Shown here piece after piece: positions 10,361 to 32,785 of a stretch of DNA of 64,000 nucleotides. The position numbers were made by a program, and so were the translations under genes. The stretch spans positions 1-64,000 of the forward strand of contig NZ_JAGPOT010000021.1 of the NCBI RefSeq assembly GCF_018224015.1, in the 5' to 3' direction. Below the pieces are notes generated by a model, which saw only the letters and a list, made by a program, of their open reading frames with translations, was not told where the DNA came from and ran no database searches. The stretch comes from Pseudarthrobacter albicanus (lineage in GTDB: Bacteria > Actinomycetota > Actinomycetes > Actinomycetales > Micrococcaceae). Position 1 is the first letter of the stretch, and each line of letters starts with the position of its first letter.

Positions 10361-12709
10361 CTACTGCGCTGCTTCCAGCAGTCCGGCGCGGACCGTCCTG
10401 GCGGCCGTGACCAGGTTGCGCAGGGACTCTTCGGTCTCGGCGTAGCCGCGGGTCTTCAGGCCGCAGTCCGGGTTGACCCAGAGCTGGCGGGACGGGACGT
10501 GCTTGACGGCGGTGCTGAGCAGCTCCGTGACTTCCTGCTCGCCCGGGACGCGCGGCGAGTGGATGTCGTAGACGCCCGGGCCGACGCCGCGGCCGAAGCC
10601 GTGGTGCTCGAGGTCGTGGACAACCTCCATGCGGGAGCGGGCGGCCTCGATCGAGGTGACGTCGGCGTCGAGGCCGTCGATCGCGTCGATGATGGCGCCG
10701 AACTCGGAGTAGCACAGGTGGGTGTGGACCTGGGTGCTGTCCCCGGCGCCGGCGGTCGCGAGGCGGAAGGACTTCACTGACCAGTCCAGGTACGCGGCCT
10801 GGTCCGCCTTGCGCAGCGGCAGGAGCTCGCGCAGGGCGGGCTCGTCCACCTGGATGATCTTGATGCCGGCGGCTTCGAGGTCGGCGATCTCGTCGCGGAG
10901 GGCCAGGGCCACCTGGTTGGCGGTCTCGCCGAGGGGCTGGTCGTCGCGGACGAAGGACCAGGCCAGGATCGTGACCGGACCGGTGAGCATGCCCTTCATC
11001 GGCTTCTTGGTCAGGGACTGGGCGTACTCCGCCCACTGAACCGTGATGGGGGCGCTGCGGGTGACGTCGCCCCACAGGATGGACGGGCGGGTGCAGCGTG
11101 AGCCGTAGGACTGGACCCAGCCGTGCACGGTGACGTCGAAGCCTTCGAGGTTCTCGGCGAAGTACTGGACCATGTCGTTGCGCTCGGGCTCGCCGTGGAC
11201 CAGGACGTCGAAGCCGAGCTCTTCCTGCAGCTCAACGACGCGCTTGATCTCATCCTTCATGAGCTGCTCGTACTGCTCCGTGGTCAGCTCGCCCTTGTTG
11301 GCGCGGGCCCGGGCGGTGCGGATTTCACCGGTCTGCGGGAACGATCCGATGGTGGTGGTCGGCAGCGGCGGCAGGTGCAGGGCCTCGGTCTGCGCGGCTT
11401 CGCGGACGCCGTAGGCGGAGCGGTTGAAGTCGGCGCCGGTCAGCGCGGCGGTGCGGGCCCGGACCCCTGCACGGCGGACGCCCTCGGCGGCGGCGCGGTC
11501 GGCGATGATGCGGGTGGCCTCGTCGATGGCCGGCTGGACGTCCTGTGCCTGGACGCCGGTGGCCGGGTCGGTGAGCAGGCCGGCCAGGGTGACCACCTCC
11601 GCCGTCTTCTGGTCGGCGAAGGCCAGCCAGCTGCGCAGCTGGGCGGAGAGCCGGACTTCCTCGTCGACGTCGTGCGGGACGTGCTGGGTGGAGGTGGAGG
11701 TGCTGATGGCCAGCGTGGCCACGCTCTTCTGCAGCTCGGCGATCTTGTCCGCCGAGGCGGCAAGGTCGTTGCGCCAGATGTTGTGGCCGTCCACGACGCC
11801 GGCGACGAGGGTCTTGTTGCCCAGCGCGGCGAGGGCGGCGGCGGAGGGGACGGCGCCCTTGAAGACGTCCAGGTGCAGGGCGTCGATGTTCGTGGCGGCG
11901 AGCGTGCCGAGCTGGCCGTTGAGCGCGCCGTACGGGGTGGAGACGAAAAGCTGCGGGCGCTGGGCCGTGGCGGCCAGGGCCTCGTAGGAGCGGGCGACGG
12001 CGGCCTGGATTTCCACGGCCGGGGTGTCCTGGTCCACCACGAGGGCGGGCTCGTCGAGCTGGACCCAGCTGGCGCCGGCGGCGGCAAGCTTCTCCAGCAG
12101 TGCGGTGTACACGGGGAGGATGTCCTCGAGGCGGGACAGCGGGCTGAAGCCGGCCGGGGCGTCGTCGGAGGCCTTGCTCAGCAGCAGGAACGTGACCGGG
12201 CCGACAATGTACGGGCGGGTTTCGACACCGTTGGCGAGGGCGTATTCGAATTCCTCGACGATGCGGTTGGAGGTCAGCGCGAAGCTGGTTTCGGGGCCGA
12301 TTTCCGGCACGAGGTAGTGGTAGTTGGTGTCGAACCACTTGGTCATTTCCAGCGGCTGCTGGTCCTTGGTGCCGCGGGCCAGGGTGAAGTAGCCGTCGAT
12401 GTCCAGCTGGCCTTCGGCGTTGAGGAGGTTGCCGAACCGGGCCGGCACGGCGCCGAGGTGGGCGGCGGCGTCGAGCACCTGGTCGTAGTAGGAGAAGGTG
12501 CCGGGGACCGCTGCGGCCTCGGTCAGGCCCAGTCCCTGGAGGCGCCGGGCGGTGCCGAGCTGGATCTCCTTGGCGGCGGCGTCGAGCGCGGCGGCGTCGA
12601 TCCTGCCGGCCCAGTAGGCCTCCACGGCCTTCTTGAGTTCGCGGCGGCGGCCGATGCGCGGGTAGCCCAGGATCGAGGCGGACGGGAAGGGGGTGTTCTT
12701 GTCAGTCAT
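10361..12709 (-). CDS. metE: Cobalamin-independent methionine synthase
   Basis: MetE transfers the methyl group of 5-methyltetrahydropteroyl-triglutamate to homocysteine without cobalamin. The 782-residue product begins SASILGYPRIGRRRELKKAVE, as MetE does. The zinc-binding half is present: VHTHLCYSEFGAIID supplies His and Cys, followed by SIEAARSRMEV and VNPDCGLKTRGYAE. The ATG at 12709 follows AAAGGA by six bases; the longer open frame to 13327 overlaps metF and is not used. It is downstream of metF by 59 bases on the same strand, so both probably share the long leader upstream of metF. MetF produces the methyl donor for MetE. Confidence 0.97.
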   Translation of the reverse strand: MTDKNTPFPSASILGYPRIGRRRELKKAVEAYWAGRIDAAALDAAAKEIQLGTARRLQGLGLTEAAAVPGTFSYYDQVLDAAAHLGAVPARFGNLLNAEGQLDIDGYFTLARGTKDQQPLEMTKWFDTNYHYLVPEIGPETSFALTSNRIVEEFEYALANGVETRPYIVGPVTFLLLSKASDDAPAGFSPLSRLEDILPVYTALLEKLAAAGASWVQLDEPALVVDQDTPAVEIQAAVARSYEALAATAQRPQLFVSTPYGALNGQLGTLAATNIDALHLDVFKGAVPSAAALAALGNKTLVAGVVDGHNIWRNDLAASADKIAELQKSVATLAISTSTSTQHVPHDVDEEVRLSAQLRSWLAFADQKTAEVVTLAGLLTDPATGVQAQDVQPAIDEATRIIADRAAAEGVRRAGVRARTAALTGADFNRSAYGVREAAQTEALHLPPLPTTTIGSFPQTGEIRTARARANKGELTTEQYEQLMKDEIKRVVELQEELGFDVLVHGEPERNDMVQYFAENLEGFDVTVHGWVQSYGSRCTRPSILWGDVTRSAPITVQWAEYAQSLTKKPMKGMLTGPVTILAWSFVRDDQPLGETANQVALALRDEIADLEAAGIKIIQVDEPALRELLPLRKADQAAYLDWSVKSFRLATAGAGDSTQVHTHLCYSEFGAIIDAIDGLDADVTSIEAARSRMEVVHDLEHHGFGRGVGPGVYDIHSPRVPGEQEVTELLSTAVKHVPSRQLWVNPDCGLKTRGYAETEESLRNLVTAARTVRAGLLEAAQ

Positions 12710-12768: not shown

Positions 12769-13776
12769 TCAGCTGGCCACTGGCTCGCGGACCGCCGCGG
12801 GCCGCCGTGCTGGCTGTTGCCGTCCGGCGGCTTGCCGTCCGGCGGCTTGCACAGCGGCGCGCCGCGGCCGGGGCAGCGCGAGTTTGTCCAGCACCTTCAG
12901 GGCTGCGGAGTGTTCGTTGAAGGTGTACAGGTGGATGCCGGGGGCGCCGGCGTCCAGCGCCGCGTTGGCGAGGTCCACGGTGGCGCCGACCCCGATCCGG
13001 GTCCGTTCGGCGTCGGTACCGGCGGCGGTGAGCCGATCGATGAGTTCCGGCGGCGGTTCCACACCGGTCAGCTCTGCCAGCCGGGCGAGCCGGCGGAGGC
13101 TGGTGAGCGGCATGACGCCCGGAATGATCGGGATGGTCACCCCGGCCCGGCGTGCCCGGGTCAGCAGGTCCGCGTACTGCTCGGTGTGGAAGAAGACCTG
13201 GGTGATGGCGAAGTCGGCGCCGGAGCGCTGCTTGGCCAGCAGCACTTCGATGTCGTGCGCAGCACTCGGGGATTCCGGGTGCCGGGTGGGGTACGCGGCG
13301 ACGCCGACGGCGACCTTGCCGGCGCACAGCAGCGCCGAGCGGCGCTGCTCCACGCGGCGGATGAGTTCGATCAGGTCCTGGGCGTAGCGCAGCGACCCTT
13401 CCGGCGGCGTGCCGCCGTCCTTGGGCTGGTCGCCGCGCAGCGCCAGGATGCCGCGCACCCCGACGTCGAGCAGCTCGCCGATGATCTCCGCCAGTTCCTC
13501 CGGGGAATTACCCACGCAGGTCAGGTGGGCCAGAGGCCGCAGCGTGGTCTCCTGCACGAGCCGGTTGATGAGCTCGACGGCGGTGCTCCGGTTGGAGCCG
13601 CTGGCGCCATAGGTCACGGACACGTAGTCCGGGTCCGTGGTTTCCAGTTCGCCGATGGTGGTCCAGAGCGATTCCGCGGCGGCGGGTGACCGCGGCGGGA
13701 ACAGCTCATAGGACAGCGCGACAGGCGCCGCGCCGGCAAGATTTGGATGGGTGTCAATAAGGCTTGGTGGAGACAT
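12769..13776 (-). CDS. metF: 5,10-methylenetetrahydrofolate reductase
   Basis: MetF is a flavoenzyme that makes 5-methyltetrahydrofolate for methionine synthesis. The 335-residue protein has SYELFPPRSPAAAESLW at the start, then YVSVTYGASGS, HLTCVGNSPEEL, GILALRGDQP, FAITQVFFH and PIIPGVMPLTS, all diagnostic. The C-terminal 35 residues are Arg/Ala/Gln-rich with a duplicated AAGRQ segment and are not part of the barrel. The ATG at 13776 follows AAGGA by six bases. The gene begins the metF-metE unit. Confidence 0.96.
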   Translation of the reverse strand: MSPPSLIDTHPNLAGAAPVALSYELFPPRSPAAAESLWTTIGELETTDPDYVSVTYGASGSNRSTAVELINRLVQETTLRPLAHLTCVGNSPEELAEIIGELLDVGVRGILALRGDQPKDGGTPPEGSLRYAQDLIELIRRVEQRRSALLCAGKVAVGVAAYPTRHPESPSAAHDIEVLLAKQRSGADFAITQVFFHTEQYADLLTRARRAGVTIPIIPGVMPLTSLRRLARLAELTGVEPPPELIDRLTAAGTDAERTRIGVGATVDLANAALDAGAPGIHLYTFNEHSAALKVLDKLALPRPRRAAVQAAGRQAAGRQQPARRPAAVREPVAS

Positions 13777-14015
13777 TTGCGTCCTTGGCTGTGAGCCACT
13801 GGCGGTGTCAGCGCCGGAAATCCGGGAGCTGTGCCGTCAATGAATTGAGTTTGGGGAACACGGAGGGAACTTCTGCAGGACGCAGCCGCGACTGTTACGC
13901 CTGATACGAAGTTGTCCGTGAGCAAATGTCAGGCCCACATGGGGGCACCCACACCCTCCTCGGCCGCCCTGGGGCGGCCTGCAGCGGAGGATCGCTGACA
14001 CGTTACTGAGGTAAC
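13777..14015 (-). promoter_or_regulatory. Long structured leader upstream of metF-metE, unassigned riboswitch candidate
   Basis: On the minus strand this leader can fold into a three-way junction. P1 pairs TGTCAG (14000-13995) with CTGACA (13932-13927). Inside it P2 pairs CCTCC (13990-13986) with GGAGG (13959-13955) and is capped by a GGCCGCCC/GGGCGGCC hairpin (13962-13979). A GCCC/GGGC hairpin sits at 13933-13946. Further on are CCGGA-AA-TCCGG (13814-13825) and GGCT-CAC-AGCC (13787-13797), the latter beside the metF ribosome binding site, where it could occlude translation. A palindrome GTTAC-TGAG-GTAAC (14002-14015) at the upstream end may be an operator. I cannot match a named SAM, SAH or cobalamin class. 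Confidence 0.5.
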
Positions 14016-14371
14016 TTGCTTACAACTGTAGGGGCCCCCGCGGGGGCATTCAAGTCGGCTGCCGAATTAAGACGCGGCTTTACGGAACATTTGCGGGGCC
14101 GGACAGAATATTGTTCGCGGTCTGGTCCGGTTTGCATGGCCGGGGCGGCGTGCCCTGCCTTCCCGTCCACGCCCGCCCGGCCCCGGGACCGCGGCGGATC
14201 CGGCGCATGCCGCACAACGGCCCGGGCATGGTCCCGTGGGTCTGCCCTGAGGCAGGGCATCCGGCTGCGCGGAGGTTTTCTTAGAGTCGAGGCGGGGGCT
14301 TGACACGTGTGAACTATCGATATAAGCCCGAAGTCACGGACGACTGTTTGACCAACCCGGAGGGCAGCTCA
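14016..14371 (+). promoter_or_regulatory. Promoter region of the secreted lectin-fold gene
   Basis: No gene is visible here. A TTGACA at 14300-14305 is followed 15 bases later by TATAAG (14321-14326), a plausible though slightly short-spaced sigma-A promoter. A TGCCCTG-AGG-CAGGGCA hairpin lies near 14243-14260. The ribosome binding site GGAGGG is seven bases before the ATG at 14372. The 14041-14240 part is GC-rich spacer. Confidence 0.5.
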
Positions 14372-15112
14372 ATGAAACAGCTACAAAGACTGGGGCTTGC
14401 CGGCCTGCTTCTGGCGCCACTGCTGGGGGCCGGCCTGACCACTGCAGGGATCGCGTCTGCGGCCACCACAAGCTGCCAGCCCACCGCGCCCGCCCCGACC
14501 GACTCCTACCCCGGCACCACCGTCGTGGCCGACAACTTCGAATCGGGAACCCTGGCCCCGTTCATCGTCCACAGCGCCGGAACCGGGACCGCCACGGTCT
14601 CTTCAGCACTGGCACTCTCAGGCGGCTGCGCCGGCTACCTGCACGTAACCTCCGACCCCGGCGCCCTGGCCTACCTCTCCGCTCCCCTGCCCGCGGGCAC
14701 CCCGGCCGCCTACGCAGACGGCTGGTTCAACATCACCACGGCCGGCCTGGCAGGCAGCGACGTACCCTATTTCCGGTTCTTCTCCGGAACCACGCGGATC
14801 GCGGACGTCTACCGGTACAACAGCAACGGCCAGCTCTGGCTGCGCGTGACATCACCAACCGGCGCTTCCGTCTATACACGCCTGCTGGCCTCCAGCATCC
14901 CCCTGAGCTCCTGGCATCACGTCGTCGCGCACGTCGTGCCCAACACGAGCGCTACAACGATAGAGGTCTGGTTTGACAGCGTCCTCGTCTATTCCAGCAA
15001 CCAGGTCAGCACCGGATTCACCACCTTGTCGGCCGTGCAGCTCGGCGCCGAACACGCCAGGCAGATGGGTGACAACTACCTCGACGACATCATCGTCAAG
15101 AGCGGCTCGTAA
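14372..15112 (+). CDS. Secreted protein with a single concanavalin/LamG-like domain
   Basis: A 246-residue exported protein. Residues 1-31 form a signal peptide with a hydrophobic stretch (GLAGLLLAPLLGAGL) and an Ala-x-Ala type cleavage region. The mature part looks like a jelly-roll lectin/glucanase-fold domain: DNFESGTLAPF, AYADGWFNITTAG, DVPYFRFFSGTTR, then SSWHHVVAHVVPN, EVWFDSVLVY and VQLGAEHARQMGDNYLDDIIV. It is clearly paralogous to the N-terminal half of the LGFP-repeat protein at 19791-21917 but ends after the lectin-like domain. No catalytic residues are recognised; a carbohydrate-binding role is inferred from the fold. Confidence 0.82.
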   Translation: MKQLQRLGLAGLLLAPLLGAGLTTAGIASAATTSCQPTAPAPTDSYPGTTVVADNFESGTLAPFIVHSAGTGTATVSSALALSGGCAGYLHVTSDPGALAYLSAPLPAGTPAAYADGWFNITTAGLAGSDVPYFRFFSGTTRIADVYRYNSNGQLWLRVTSPTGASVYTRLLASSIPLSSWHHVVAHVVPNTSATTIEVWFDSVLVYSSNQVSTGFTTLSAVQLGAEHARQMGDNYLDDIIVKSGS

Positions 15113-31054: not shown

Positions 31055-32665
31055 TCAGGCGTGCAGCCGCGGCGCGTCGAAGAAATCGACCTCGTAGCGC
31101 GATGACTGCCGGAAGGCCAGTGCCATGGCCTGCCGTTCGCTGTCCGGGGCCCGCCGCGCCGCCGCATCGGTGTAGGCGACCGCCTGCCGGGTCGCGGCGG
31201 CAAACTCCTCGTCCGCGTAGGTGCGCAGCCAGGCCGCGTAGGGGTGCCCTGCCGGGGCTCCCGCGGCGAGGAACTCCCCGTGCAGCGTGGCACCGACCTC
31301 GGCGTAGAGCCAGAAGCACGGCAGGACCGCGGCCACCAGCACCCCGTAGCTGCCGGAGACCGAGGCGGCCAGCAGATGGTCCACGTAGGACTTGGTGACG
31401 GGGCCCAGTTCCTGGCCGGCGGGGCGGGTGGCCAGCCACGTGCGGTGCAGCTCCGATTCGACTTCGAGGCAGTTCTGCGCGCCGCGGGCCCAGAAGAGCT
31501 GTTCGGCTTCCGACGGCGCGAGGGCCGACGCCCGGGCCAGCACCCGGGAGTAGCCGTTGAGATAGATGGCGTCCTGCGCGAGGTAGTAGGCGAAGTCCTT
31601 TTCCGGCAGGGTGCCCCCTGCCAGGCCGCGGATGAACGCGAGGCCGTAGATCGCCTCGAGGTCCGCCGCAGCCCCTTCCCAGACCGCCATGGCAAACTCG
31701 CCTTCCGCCGGGGCCGGGGTGCCGGGGTGCAGCCCGGCCGGGCCGGGATGGGGCAGGTGGTGGAAGTGATGGACGGGGCCGTTGCCGGATCCGACGTCGA
31801 GGCTCCCCGACTCCCGCAGCGCCCCCTGCAGCCACGGCTTGACCTCCCGGAGGGCGGCCTCCCAGTCCCCCACCCGGGCCTGCACGGTGGCCATCGCGGA
31901 GGACAGGGAGCATCCGGTGCCGTGGCTGTTGCGGGTCGGAATGCGCTCCCCGGGCACCACCACGGTCTCCCGGCCCAGCAGTCCGCCCGTGTTGACGAGC
32001 GCGTCGGGACAGCCGCCGGCGTCGGCCCCGCCGTCGTTGTCGCCGTCGTTGAGGGCGTCGGCGTCGTTGAGGTGGCCGCCCTTCACCAGCACCGTGGTAC
32101 CCGCCAGCGCGGCGAGCCGTTTGCCCTGCGCCAAGGCCTCCGCCCAGTCCGCGGCGACGGGCTCCCGGAGCAGGATCGCCAGTTCGGCGAGGTTGGGGGT
32201 GATCAGGTCCGCCAGCGGCAGCAGGGTGTGCAGGGCCGTCTCGGCGGACTCCCGCAGGAGCCGGTCCCCGCTCGTGGCCACCATCACCGGATCAAGCACC
32301 ACGACGCCGGGGCGCACCTTCTCGAGCCAGCTGCGGACGGCGTCGATCACGGCCGCGTCCCCCAGCATGCCGATCTTGACGGCGTCGATGGCGATGTCGT
32401 CGCTGACCGCCTCCAGCTGCGCGGTGAGGAATTCCGCCGGGGGGACGTGCACCGCCCGGACGCCCCGGGTGTTCTGCGCGGTCAGGGCGGTGATGGCCGC
32501 CATGCCGTAGCCGCCGTTCGCGGCGATGCTTTTCAGGTCGGCCTGGATCCCGGCCCCGCCGGAGGGATCGGAGCCGGCAATGGCCAGCACGCGGGGAATC
32601 CGGGGCGGCGCGGACGTGCGCGGCCGGTACGGCAGAAATTCAGACTGAAGACTTGGTGAGGACAA
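31055..32665 (-). CDS. ThiD-TenA fusion: HMP(-P) kinase with a C-terminal TenA/thiaminase II domain
   Basis: A 536-residue bifunctional thiamin enzyme. The N-terminal ThiD part has VLAIAGSDPSGGAGIQADLKSI, MLGDAAVIDAV, VVLDPVMVATSGDRLL and the ATP-site SHGTGCSLSSAMA near 250. After a Pro/His linker (about 305-325) comes TenA: FIRGLAGGTLPEKDFAYYLAQDAIYL, a catalytic cysteine in VAAVLPCFWLYAEVG, and YADEEFAAATRQAV. ThiD phosphorylates the pyrimidine precursor and TenA salvages it from degraded thiamin. The TTG at 32665 has AAGGGA 8 bases upstream; an ATG at 32674 has none. A TPP riboswitch precedes it. Confidence 0.93.
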   Translation of the reverse strand: MSSPSLQSEFLPYRPRTSAPPRIPRVLAIAGSDPSGGAGIQADLKSIAANGGYGMAAITALTAQNTRGVRAVHVPPAEFLTAQLEAVSDDIAIDAVKIGMLGDAAVIDAVRSWLEKVRPGVVVLDPVMVATSGDRLLRESAETALHTLLPLADLITPNLAELAILLREPVAADWAEALAQGKRLAALAGTTVLVKGGHLNDADALNDGDNDGGADAGGCPDALVNTGGLLGRETVVVPGERIPTRNSHGTGCSLSSAMATVQARVGDWEAALREVKPWLQGALRESGSLDVGSGNGPVHHFHHLPHPGPAGLHPGTPAPAEGEFAMAVWEGAAADLEAIYGLAFIRGLAGGTLPEKDFAYYLAQDAIYLNGYSRVLARASALAPSEAEQLFWARGAQNCLEVESELHRTWLATRPAGQELGPVTKSYVDHLLAASVSGSYGVLVAAVLPCFWLYAEVGATLHGEFLAAGAPAGHPYAAWLRTYADEEFAAATRQAVAYTDAAARRAPDSERQAMALAFRQSSRYEVDFFDAPRLHA

Positions 32666-32670
32666 GACGG

Positions 32671-32753
32671 ACATCCCTTCGCCGGTGCTAACCGGACAGG
32701 TTCAACGGGTCTGGATCTCAGCCGGCCCGATGCGCGGCACCCCGTGTCAGTCC
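32671..32753 (-). promoter_or_regulatory. TPP (thiamin pyrophosphate) riboswitch
   Basis: On the minus strand the THI element is unmistakable. The 5' part reads ACACGGGGTGCC (32747-32736), followed by GGCTGAGAT and ACCCGTTGAACCTG. It ends CCGGTTAGCACCGGCGAAGGGA, written here as CCGGTTAGCACCGG plus CGAAGGGA. The last segment contains the apparent ribosome binding site AAGGGA of the ThiD-TenA gene. Ligand binding would therefore mask translation start directly, the usual mode in high-GC actinobacteria. Confidence 0.95.
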
Positions 32754-32785
32754 CCCAGCCTAGCCGCATCCCTTAACGACCGCAC

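Follow-up and report, generated by a model that had tools for sequence, protein, structure and literature searches.

A riboswitch candidate outside the Rfam 15 families in the metF-metE leader of Arthrobacter and close relatives

The metF-metE locus

The window analyzed here is a 64,000-nucleotide (nt) stretch of the genome of Pseudarthrobacter albicanus (contig NZ_JAGPOT010000021.1), on the minus strand of which a leader of about 240 nt lies upstream of a metF-metE operon. The best family for the metF product, a methylenetetrahydrofolate reductase, is TIGR00676 (residues 21 to 299; E value, 2e-79) at 266.8 bits, which is below the curated cut-off of 293.7 bits, and the metE product matches TIGR01371, cobalamin-independent methionine synthase, at 983.5 bits, above the cut-off of 929.95 bits. 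A divergent open reading frame (ORF) on the plus strand (14372 to 15112) has a start that resembles a signal peptide by eye. The features of the locus are as follows.

10361 to 12709, minus strand: metE
12769 to 13776, minus strand: metF
13772 to 13780, minus strand: metF start region GCAAATGTC, with ATG at 13776 to 13774; predicted target of the tail, from complementarity and folding
13782 to 13786, minus strand: Shine-Dalgarno sequence AAGGA of metF, read from the sequence
13922 to 14015, minus strand: whole structured RNA, from P0 (14015) to the tail (13922)
13922 to 13930, minus strand: putative anti-start tail GACATTTGC, sharing GAC with P1; complementary to the metF start region
13928 to 13932, minus strand: P1 3' strand CTGAC, invariant
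13933 to 13946, minus strand: P3, GCCC-CCATGT-GGGC, flush with P1; one-sided G-U changes
13947 to 13952, minus strand: J2/3, GTGGGT, single strand; invariant columns in 55 sequences
13953 to 13992, minus strand: P2 stem, GGCCGCCC/GGGCGGCC, with a long variable cap in the window's genome; covariation
13995 to 13999, minus strand: P1 5' strand GTCAG, invariant; partner, 13932 to 13928
14002 to 14015, minus strand: P0, 5' hairpin GTTAC-CTCA-GTAAC; motif and both-sided changes
14025 to 14030, minus strand: predicted -10 hexamer TACAGT, conserved in anchored leaders
14048 to 14053, minus strand: predicted -35 hexamer TTGAAT of the metF promoter (spacer, 17 nt), conserved in anchored leaders

The two hexamers are located 10 to 38 nt upstream of P0. 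Among the anchored leaders (P0 motif present), the first T of the -35 hexamer is kept in 96% and the following T, G, and A in 64 to 70%, and the T, A, and last T of the -10 hexamer are kept in 94%. A generic sigma-70 scan placed this pair below threshold, and the terminator and generic promoter scans were empty. From the conservation of the pair, the transcript is predicted to start near 14017. A start downstream of 13927 had been named as one of the results that would speak against the original prediction of a structured leader; the predicted start lies upstream instead.

Distribution and association with metF

In the genus, 174 of 206 genomes matched the leader DNA, as did 94 of 295 genomes (13 of 32 genera) in the family, although at least four of the 94 family matches (G247, G323, G374, and G416, from 2 of the 13 genera) turned out to have no core, only some of the remaining ones having been read for it. 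The core was present in 134 of the 140 loci read, some genomes being represented twice, and always on the metF strand; the six loci that were dropped (L128, L129, and L131 to L134) had neither core nor metF. Where the alignment begins near the MetF start, the core began 84 to 244 nt before the first aligned MetF codon; these are upper values, some MetF alignments beginning at residues 19 to 22. The motif GTCAGCGA was present in all 134 core-bearing loci, before any selection by pattern.

A pattern scan of named genomes gave at least 116 stretches, 111 of which have metF within 400 nt downstream on the same strand, with four more cut at the edge of the locus. The matches listed came from Arthrobacter, Pseudarthrobacter, Paenarthrobacter, Sinomonas, Specibacter, Acaricomes, Haematomicrobium, and Psychromicrobium and from one assembly each of Renibacterium, Micrococcaceae, Sporosarcina, and Brevibacterium. 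The Sporosarcina match (L215; Sporosarcina beigongshangi contig NZ_JADHDY010000014.1) is an Arthrobacter-type element before metF and may reflect a contaminated assembly. For the comparisons below, 178 distinct leaders (177 of them on the tree) were selected with a search pattern in which GTCAGCGA, TGTGGGT, and CTGAC are obligatory, so that these letters are constant by construction.

A covariance model built from 41 short-cap sequences (58 positions), which did not include the window's own sequence, scored the element at 73.9 bits in the window's genome, the next-best place reaching 14.9 bits. Across the order, 16 of 396 genomes were matched (15 belonging to the window's family, plus a Brevibacterium match rejected below), and across the class, 4 of 394, all in the window's family, in a search whose filters lose weak matches. 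Among the 32 genomes of the genus that had no leader match, 18 were searched for MetF and none gave a match; MetH matches in the same 18 genomes (G110, G025, G154, G083, and 14 others) were all below the cut-off.

The Brevibacterium match (L156, which is L186 in the pattern scan) scored 29.5 bits, with an E value of 5.6e-4 for one genome in a search of 396, and was judged to be a chance match. The locus contains neither metF nor metE. The surrounding DNA was matched in 8 of 57 genomes of that genus, and in those eight, GTCAGCGA is kept in five and GTGGGT in five, but CTGACATTYG, which comprises the P1 3' strand and the tail, in only two. A lookalike of the first half of the element (GTCAGCGA plus GTGGGT) is found in four of the eight relatives (L156 and L275 to L282). 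The alignment of these sequences (A3) mixes strands and was left out of the evidence.

Conservation of the structure

The leader of the window folds with a z score of -2.83 relative to shuffled sequences (1 of 200 shuffles was equally stable), and the opposite strand is unremarkable (z score of -1.14). Conservation of the helices was assessed in an alignment of 55 elements hand-chosen from 110 distinct ones (A1, with L107 re-anchored by hand) and in the 41 sequences of the model alignment (A2), which is A1 minus 14 long-cap sequences. In A2, 99.3% of all cells pair, compared with 24 to 57% when the partners are slid. P2 is, from these alignments, maintained by covariation: both sides have changed at five of its six pairs in A2, the cells changed on both sides number 40, compared with 13.1 in shuffles, and the covariation score is 0.237, compared with 0.145; neither value was reached in any of 500 shuffles. 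The number of pairs changed on both sides (5, versus 3.8) and the number of pair types (10, versus 10.9) did not exceed the shuffles. When mapped on a tree of 177 MetF fragments, P2 shows at least 38 pair-type changes at its five variable pairs (8, 4, 9, 11, and 6), with a standard pair missing from 4 of 885 cells; sign tests on single pairs had too few independent contrasts to reach significance.

P1 is invariant in the 55 sequences of A1 and in all 41 sequences of A2. Since it never varies, covariation offers no proof of it, and the case for its existence is made by position and complementarity. The outer T-A pair of TGTCAG/CTGACA is present in 159 of 178 leaders and is therefore not part of the constant P1, which has 5 bp. 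P3 showed one-sided G-U changes plus one break in A2, and with 711 of 712 cells pairing, against 707 of 712 for an overlapping UGGG/CCCA hairpin, the two cannot be told apart by cell counts. The three-way junction that had been proposed by eye, with one long capped and one short stem, was recovered with P1, P2, and P3 in place, although only 5 bp of its closing helix are constant; the covariation expected of all three helices was found in P2, with P1 constant and P3 changing on one side only. The 5' leader of this metabolic operon contains a structured domain that is conserved, as expected of a riboswitch.

The bases of P3 and P1 also spell a minimal leader ORF, (A/G)TG NGG GYC TGA (13940 to 13929, minus strand), the translation of which could couple ribosome traffic to the structure. 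Its start, its three codons, and its stop have been retained in 177 of 178 elements, the first base being A or G throughout those 177. However, these bases belong to the two helices, the TGA is fixed by the search pattern, the second codon varies (TGG, AGG, and CGG), and no Shine-Dalgarno sequence is seen by eye at a normal distance; the reading frame may be a by-product of the structure, and its translation as the basis of regulation appears extremely unlikely.

P0 is the palindrome GTTAC-N4-GTAAC at the upstream end of the element, for which the original prediction had suggested a protein operator. Its motif, GTTRC..GYAAC, is found in 140 of 168 leaders, and both sides have changed at one pair in 9 of 55 sequences (GTTAC/GTAAC to GTTGC/GCAAC). 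These paired changes are not decisive because a palindromic operator would also change symmetrically. A repressor operator, with the conservation downstream of it being secondary, would be in keeping with the overlap of the palindrome with the predicted transcript start; however, the sequence occurs at 2 places in the genome, as does a control pattern, 28 of 168 leaders with a core have an altered motif or none, and the P2 covariation and the match of the tail described below would be left without an account. Such an operator is therefore highly improbable. The palindrome is probably a 5' hairpin and not the operator of a regulon, and its position at the transcript's predicted 5' end, together with its maintenance, in most cases, by paired changes, weakens the operator proposal further.

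A tail complementary to the metF start

In the comparison of leaders, the metF start is reached by the tail that follows P1, and in the window the tail is the exact reverse complement of the start region. This complementarity, as read from the sequences, is new relative to the original prediction. In the 178 leaders, 98.5% of 1,602 tail:start cells pair, in comparison with 17 to 43% for registers slid by 1 to 4 positions. All nine pairs are present in 165 of the 173 leaders outside the GACATTCG clade, eight in seven leaders, and six in one. Tails of the form GACATTTGT face starts with an A at position -4 (seven leaders); four leaders with the tail GACATTTGG also have an A at -4, which is a mismatch. 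The weaker fits are those of L108 (6/9) and of L114, L119, and one GACATTTGA leader (8/9 each). The five leaders of the GACATTCG clade have the tail GACATTCGT, by which the match to the start is broken, and show a match of 7 to 8 bp, TTCGTAC(G)/(C)GTACGAA, directly before the Shine-Dalgarno sequence (GAGG or AAGG).

When tails were scored with their own starts, the total was 762, against at most 746 in swapped sets, ahead in 60 of 60 swaps (85 distinct combinations, with kinship ignored). The start sequence CAAATGTC was found in none of eight metF leaders from the family that do not have the element. The second codon of metF is TCN in 175 of 178 leaders and CCN in 3, and CCAAGGA or a similar sequence precedes many metF starts. 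On the tree, the tail changed at least 5 times with one independent supported contrast, leaving a sign test without power. With so few independent changes, the tail:start covariation is suggestive and not conclusive by itself.

Folding of the leader and a possible switch

Folding of the free leaders placed the tail:start helix above 0.5 in 170 of 178 and P1 above 0.5 in none, and the start codon was less than 0.1 unpaired in 167 of 178. An initial run with 33 leaders agreed with this larger run (L001, L022, L090, L104, L113, and L122 were not part of it, being identical in sequence to a leader under another name or unqualified). For the free leader of the window, tail:start pairing was 0.998 and the start codon was 0.001 unpaired; forcing P1 raised the unpaired value of the start codon to 0.59 at a cost of 12.4 kcal/mol. 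At such a cost, the ligand would need assistance from kinetics or tertiary contacts. With P1 forced in all 178 leaders, the start was more than 0.3 unpaired in 159, with a mean of 0.49. Cells between the tail and the 3' strand of P0, which would extend P1, pair in 640 of 712 cases (207 to 356 when slid), and this extension exceeded 0.5 in only 71 of the 178 P1-forced folds. When P1 and P3 were forced together in the 33-leader set (without L071, identical in sequence to a leader under another name or unqualified), no valid fold was obtained for 4 of 33 leaders, and among the other 29, the start opened by more than 0.1 in 24 but not in 5. A second copy of the P1 3' strand, CGCTGACA, located downstream of the element, was also considered as an expression platform and was attributed to chance, with a match in 14 of 109 leaders.

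Judged by complementarity and folding only, a platform that competes with the aptamer fold is present. We consider it reasonably probable that the leader functions as an RNA switch acting in cis and belonging to no described class, in which a methionine-cycle ligand that stabilizes the core activates translation of metF-metE. In the free RNA, the tail GACAUUUGC would pair with the metF start region and bury the AUG. Once P1 has formed, the GAC of the tail would be taken up by P1 and the rest could pair with the 3' strand of P0, so that the AUG mostly opens in the models. A ligand that stabilizes the P1-P3 core may thus turn on metF and, through the operon, metE. The energy models, in which the start is buried in the free RNA and mostly opens when P1 is imposed, favor a translational switch that is activated on P1 formation.

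The same RNA may instead work with the opposite sign, as an OFF switch in which S-adenosylmethionine (SAM) stabilizes the core and helps the AUUUGC part of the tail to hold the start, so that it would replace, in function, the SAM riboswitch of related genera. Repression by SAM is the usual logic for methionine genes. Six of the nine tail:start pairs are compatible with P1, and with P1 forced, this six-pair helix exceeds 0.5 in 8 of 178 leaders. Of 21 further genomes of the family in which the element is absent, 8 gave a MetF match, and in the leaders of those metF genes, SAM or SAM-IV riboswitches were found at the gathering score in five and just below it in two (43.9 and 42.4 bits, against 44.4), with one leader having none; a SAM riboswitch at the same place in relatives favors SAM and repression and argues against an activating switch. 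However, P1 and the tail:start helix are largely exclusive in folding, the start is already buried in the free RNA, and SAM-IV is already present at four other places in the genome, so that a second SAM class would need a reason. We regard the SAM OFF switch as a possible but less probable reading. In L284 (from G260), a locus of the family whose metF has neither the element nor an Rfam riboswitch at threshold, an upstream ORF seems to end close before metF and no metE match was found.

Instead of sensing a metabolite, the RNA could be bound by a protein or by a small RNA acting in trans, with regulation again exerted through occlusion of the start codon. An association with a single locus and accepted matches confined to one family would fit a protein-RNA pair as well, and a small RNA that acts on metE has been reported in Streptomyces (PMC4365011). 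The invariant junction bases CGA and GUGGGU and the freely varying P2 cap, on the other hand, look like an aptamer pocket, and we consider a protein or small RNA partner unlikely.

Relation to known RNA classes

A scan of the whole window against Rfam 15 placed no family at threshold over the element; it returned four tRNAs and one thiamine pyrophosphate (TPP) riboswitch (32657 to 32754, minus strand, 59.6 bits), all away from it. Relaxed scans of the element, with E values up to 5 to 10, gave unrelated weak matches and no riboswitch model, a relaxed scan of the homologue L139 gave unrelated weak matches at most, and a scan of 15 element-bearing loci, including that of the window, gave one tRNA and nothing else. 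These scans yielded no clean match to a known class and agree with the original prediction that the leader fits no riboswitch class; its suggestion of a diverged known class has lost ground, since no riboswitch model appeared up to E values of 5 to 10 and relatives have SAM or SAM-IV at the same place, whereas the suggestion of an undescribed methionine-cycle RNA has gained from the structure, the P2 covariation, the association with metF-metE, and the absence of an Rfam match. The element looks like a riboswitch candidate outside every Rfam 15 family, present in Arthrobacter and close relatives.

Members of the SAM clan (RF00162, SAM; RF00634, SAM-IV) occupy the same position before metF in 5 of 8 family leaders without the element, and no covariance model of this clan matched at the element in the window or in the 15 element-bearing loci; the three-helix core presumably does not have the GGCAACC and kink-turn features of the clan. 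SAM-III, SAM-VI, and other translational riboswitches occlude the ribosome site. The element resembles SAM-III and SAM-VI in its small junction and its predicted control at the translation start but differs in that the start codon region itself would pair with the strand after P1, and Rfam did not list either class at the element. The S-adenosylhomocysteine (SAH) riboswitch has an activating sign. Its model (RF01057) gave no match at the element up to E values of 5 to 10. A published regulon study (PMC4239095) includes metF in the regulons of this riboswitch, a gene set like that found here.

A stretch of the plus strand (GGGGAACACGG...ACTGTTAC, about 13853 to 13897) that appears B12-like by eye was rejected as a cobalamin riboswitch, having no model match and lying on a strand whose fold was equaled or exceeded in stability by 29 of 200 shuffles. 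A search of titles and the beginnings of abstracts found no description of this RNA, although an earlier report is possible. The main text of PMC2864571, which presents 104 candidate RNAs, contains neither "methionine" nor "Arthrobacter".

Candidate ligands

Of the four SAM-IV elements in the window's genome, two are directly before metY and metX, a third precedes a cysteine-desulfurase-like gene, and the fourth heads a small ORF, an ORF that is rhodanese-like by eye, and an O-succinylhomoserine sulfhydrylase gene. Genes for homocysteine synthesis, metY and metX among them, are thus located behind SAM-IV, and those for homocysteine methylation behind the new RNA. A further SAM-like element, below the gathering score at 41.8 bits (G000:C179:50732-50854; L318, 733 to 855), lies before a gene for a MetE-like protein, whose matches to methionine synthase families are all under the cut-offs.

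Cobalamin riboswitches (RF00174) are often found upstream of bacterial metE. The window's genome, in an assembly that is 94.8% complete, contains no RF00174 match, at the element or elsewhere, and no MetH match, and of 17 genomes bearing the element, only 3 have MetH above the cut-off, which makes cobalamin unlikely as the ligand.

The ligand is the least certain part of the activating reading; we infer a methionine-cycle intermediate, most likely homocysteine or SAH and less likely SAM. The SAM and SAM-IV elements at this position in relatives and those before metY and metX in the window's genome were taken into account in this ranking. In Proteobacteria, according to PMC4239095, the same target pair, metE and metF, is activated in response to homocysteine by MetR, which is a protein, and SAH riboswitch regulons have ahcY and metF as core targets. 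A natural homocysteine riboswitch, activating at the level of translation, whose post-P1 strand would keep the metF start closed until homocysteine stabilizes the P1-P3 core, is conceivable but rather doubtful; no natural homocysteine-sensing riboswitch was found in the literature searched. If the homocysteine reading is true, the substrate of MetE would be read by one RNA and the end product SAM by another.

Implications

This element would add an orphan riboswitch class with a clear gene context, a short core, and 178 distinct natural leaders. A test of the mechanism is built in, as tail and start can be altered jointly. Some genera have SAM or SAM-IV at the position before this operon, and their relatives have an unrelated RNA there. 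Should homocysteine or SAH prove to be the ligand, the element may explain how an organism that uses MetE and has no cobalamin riboswitch matches metF-metE to supply. The element seems to be a so far undescribed RNA switch of the step that completes methionine synthesis.
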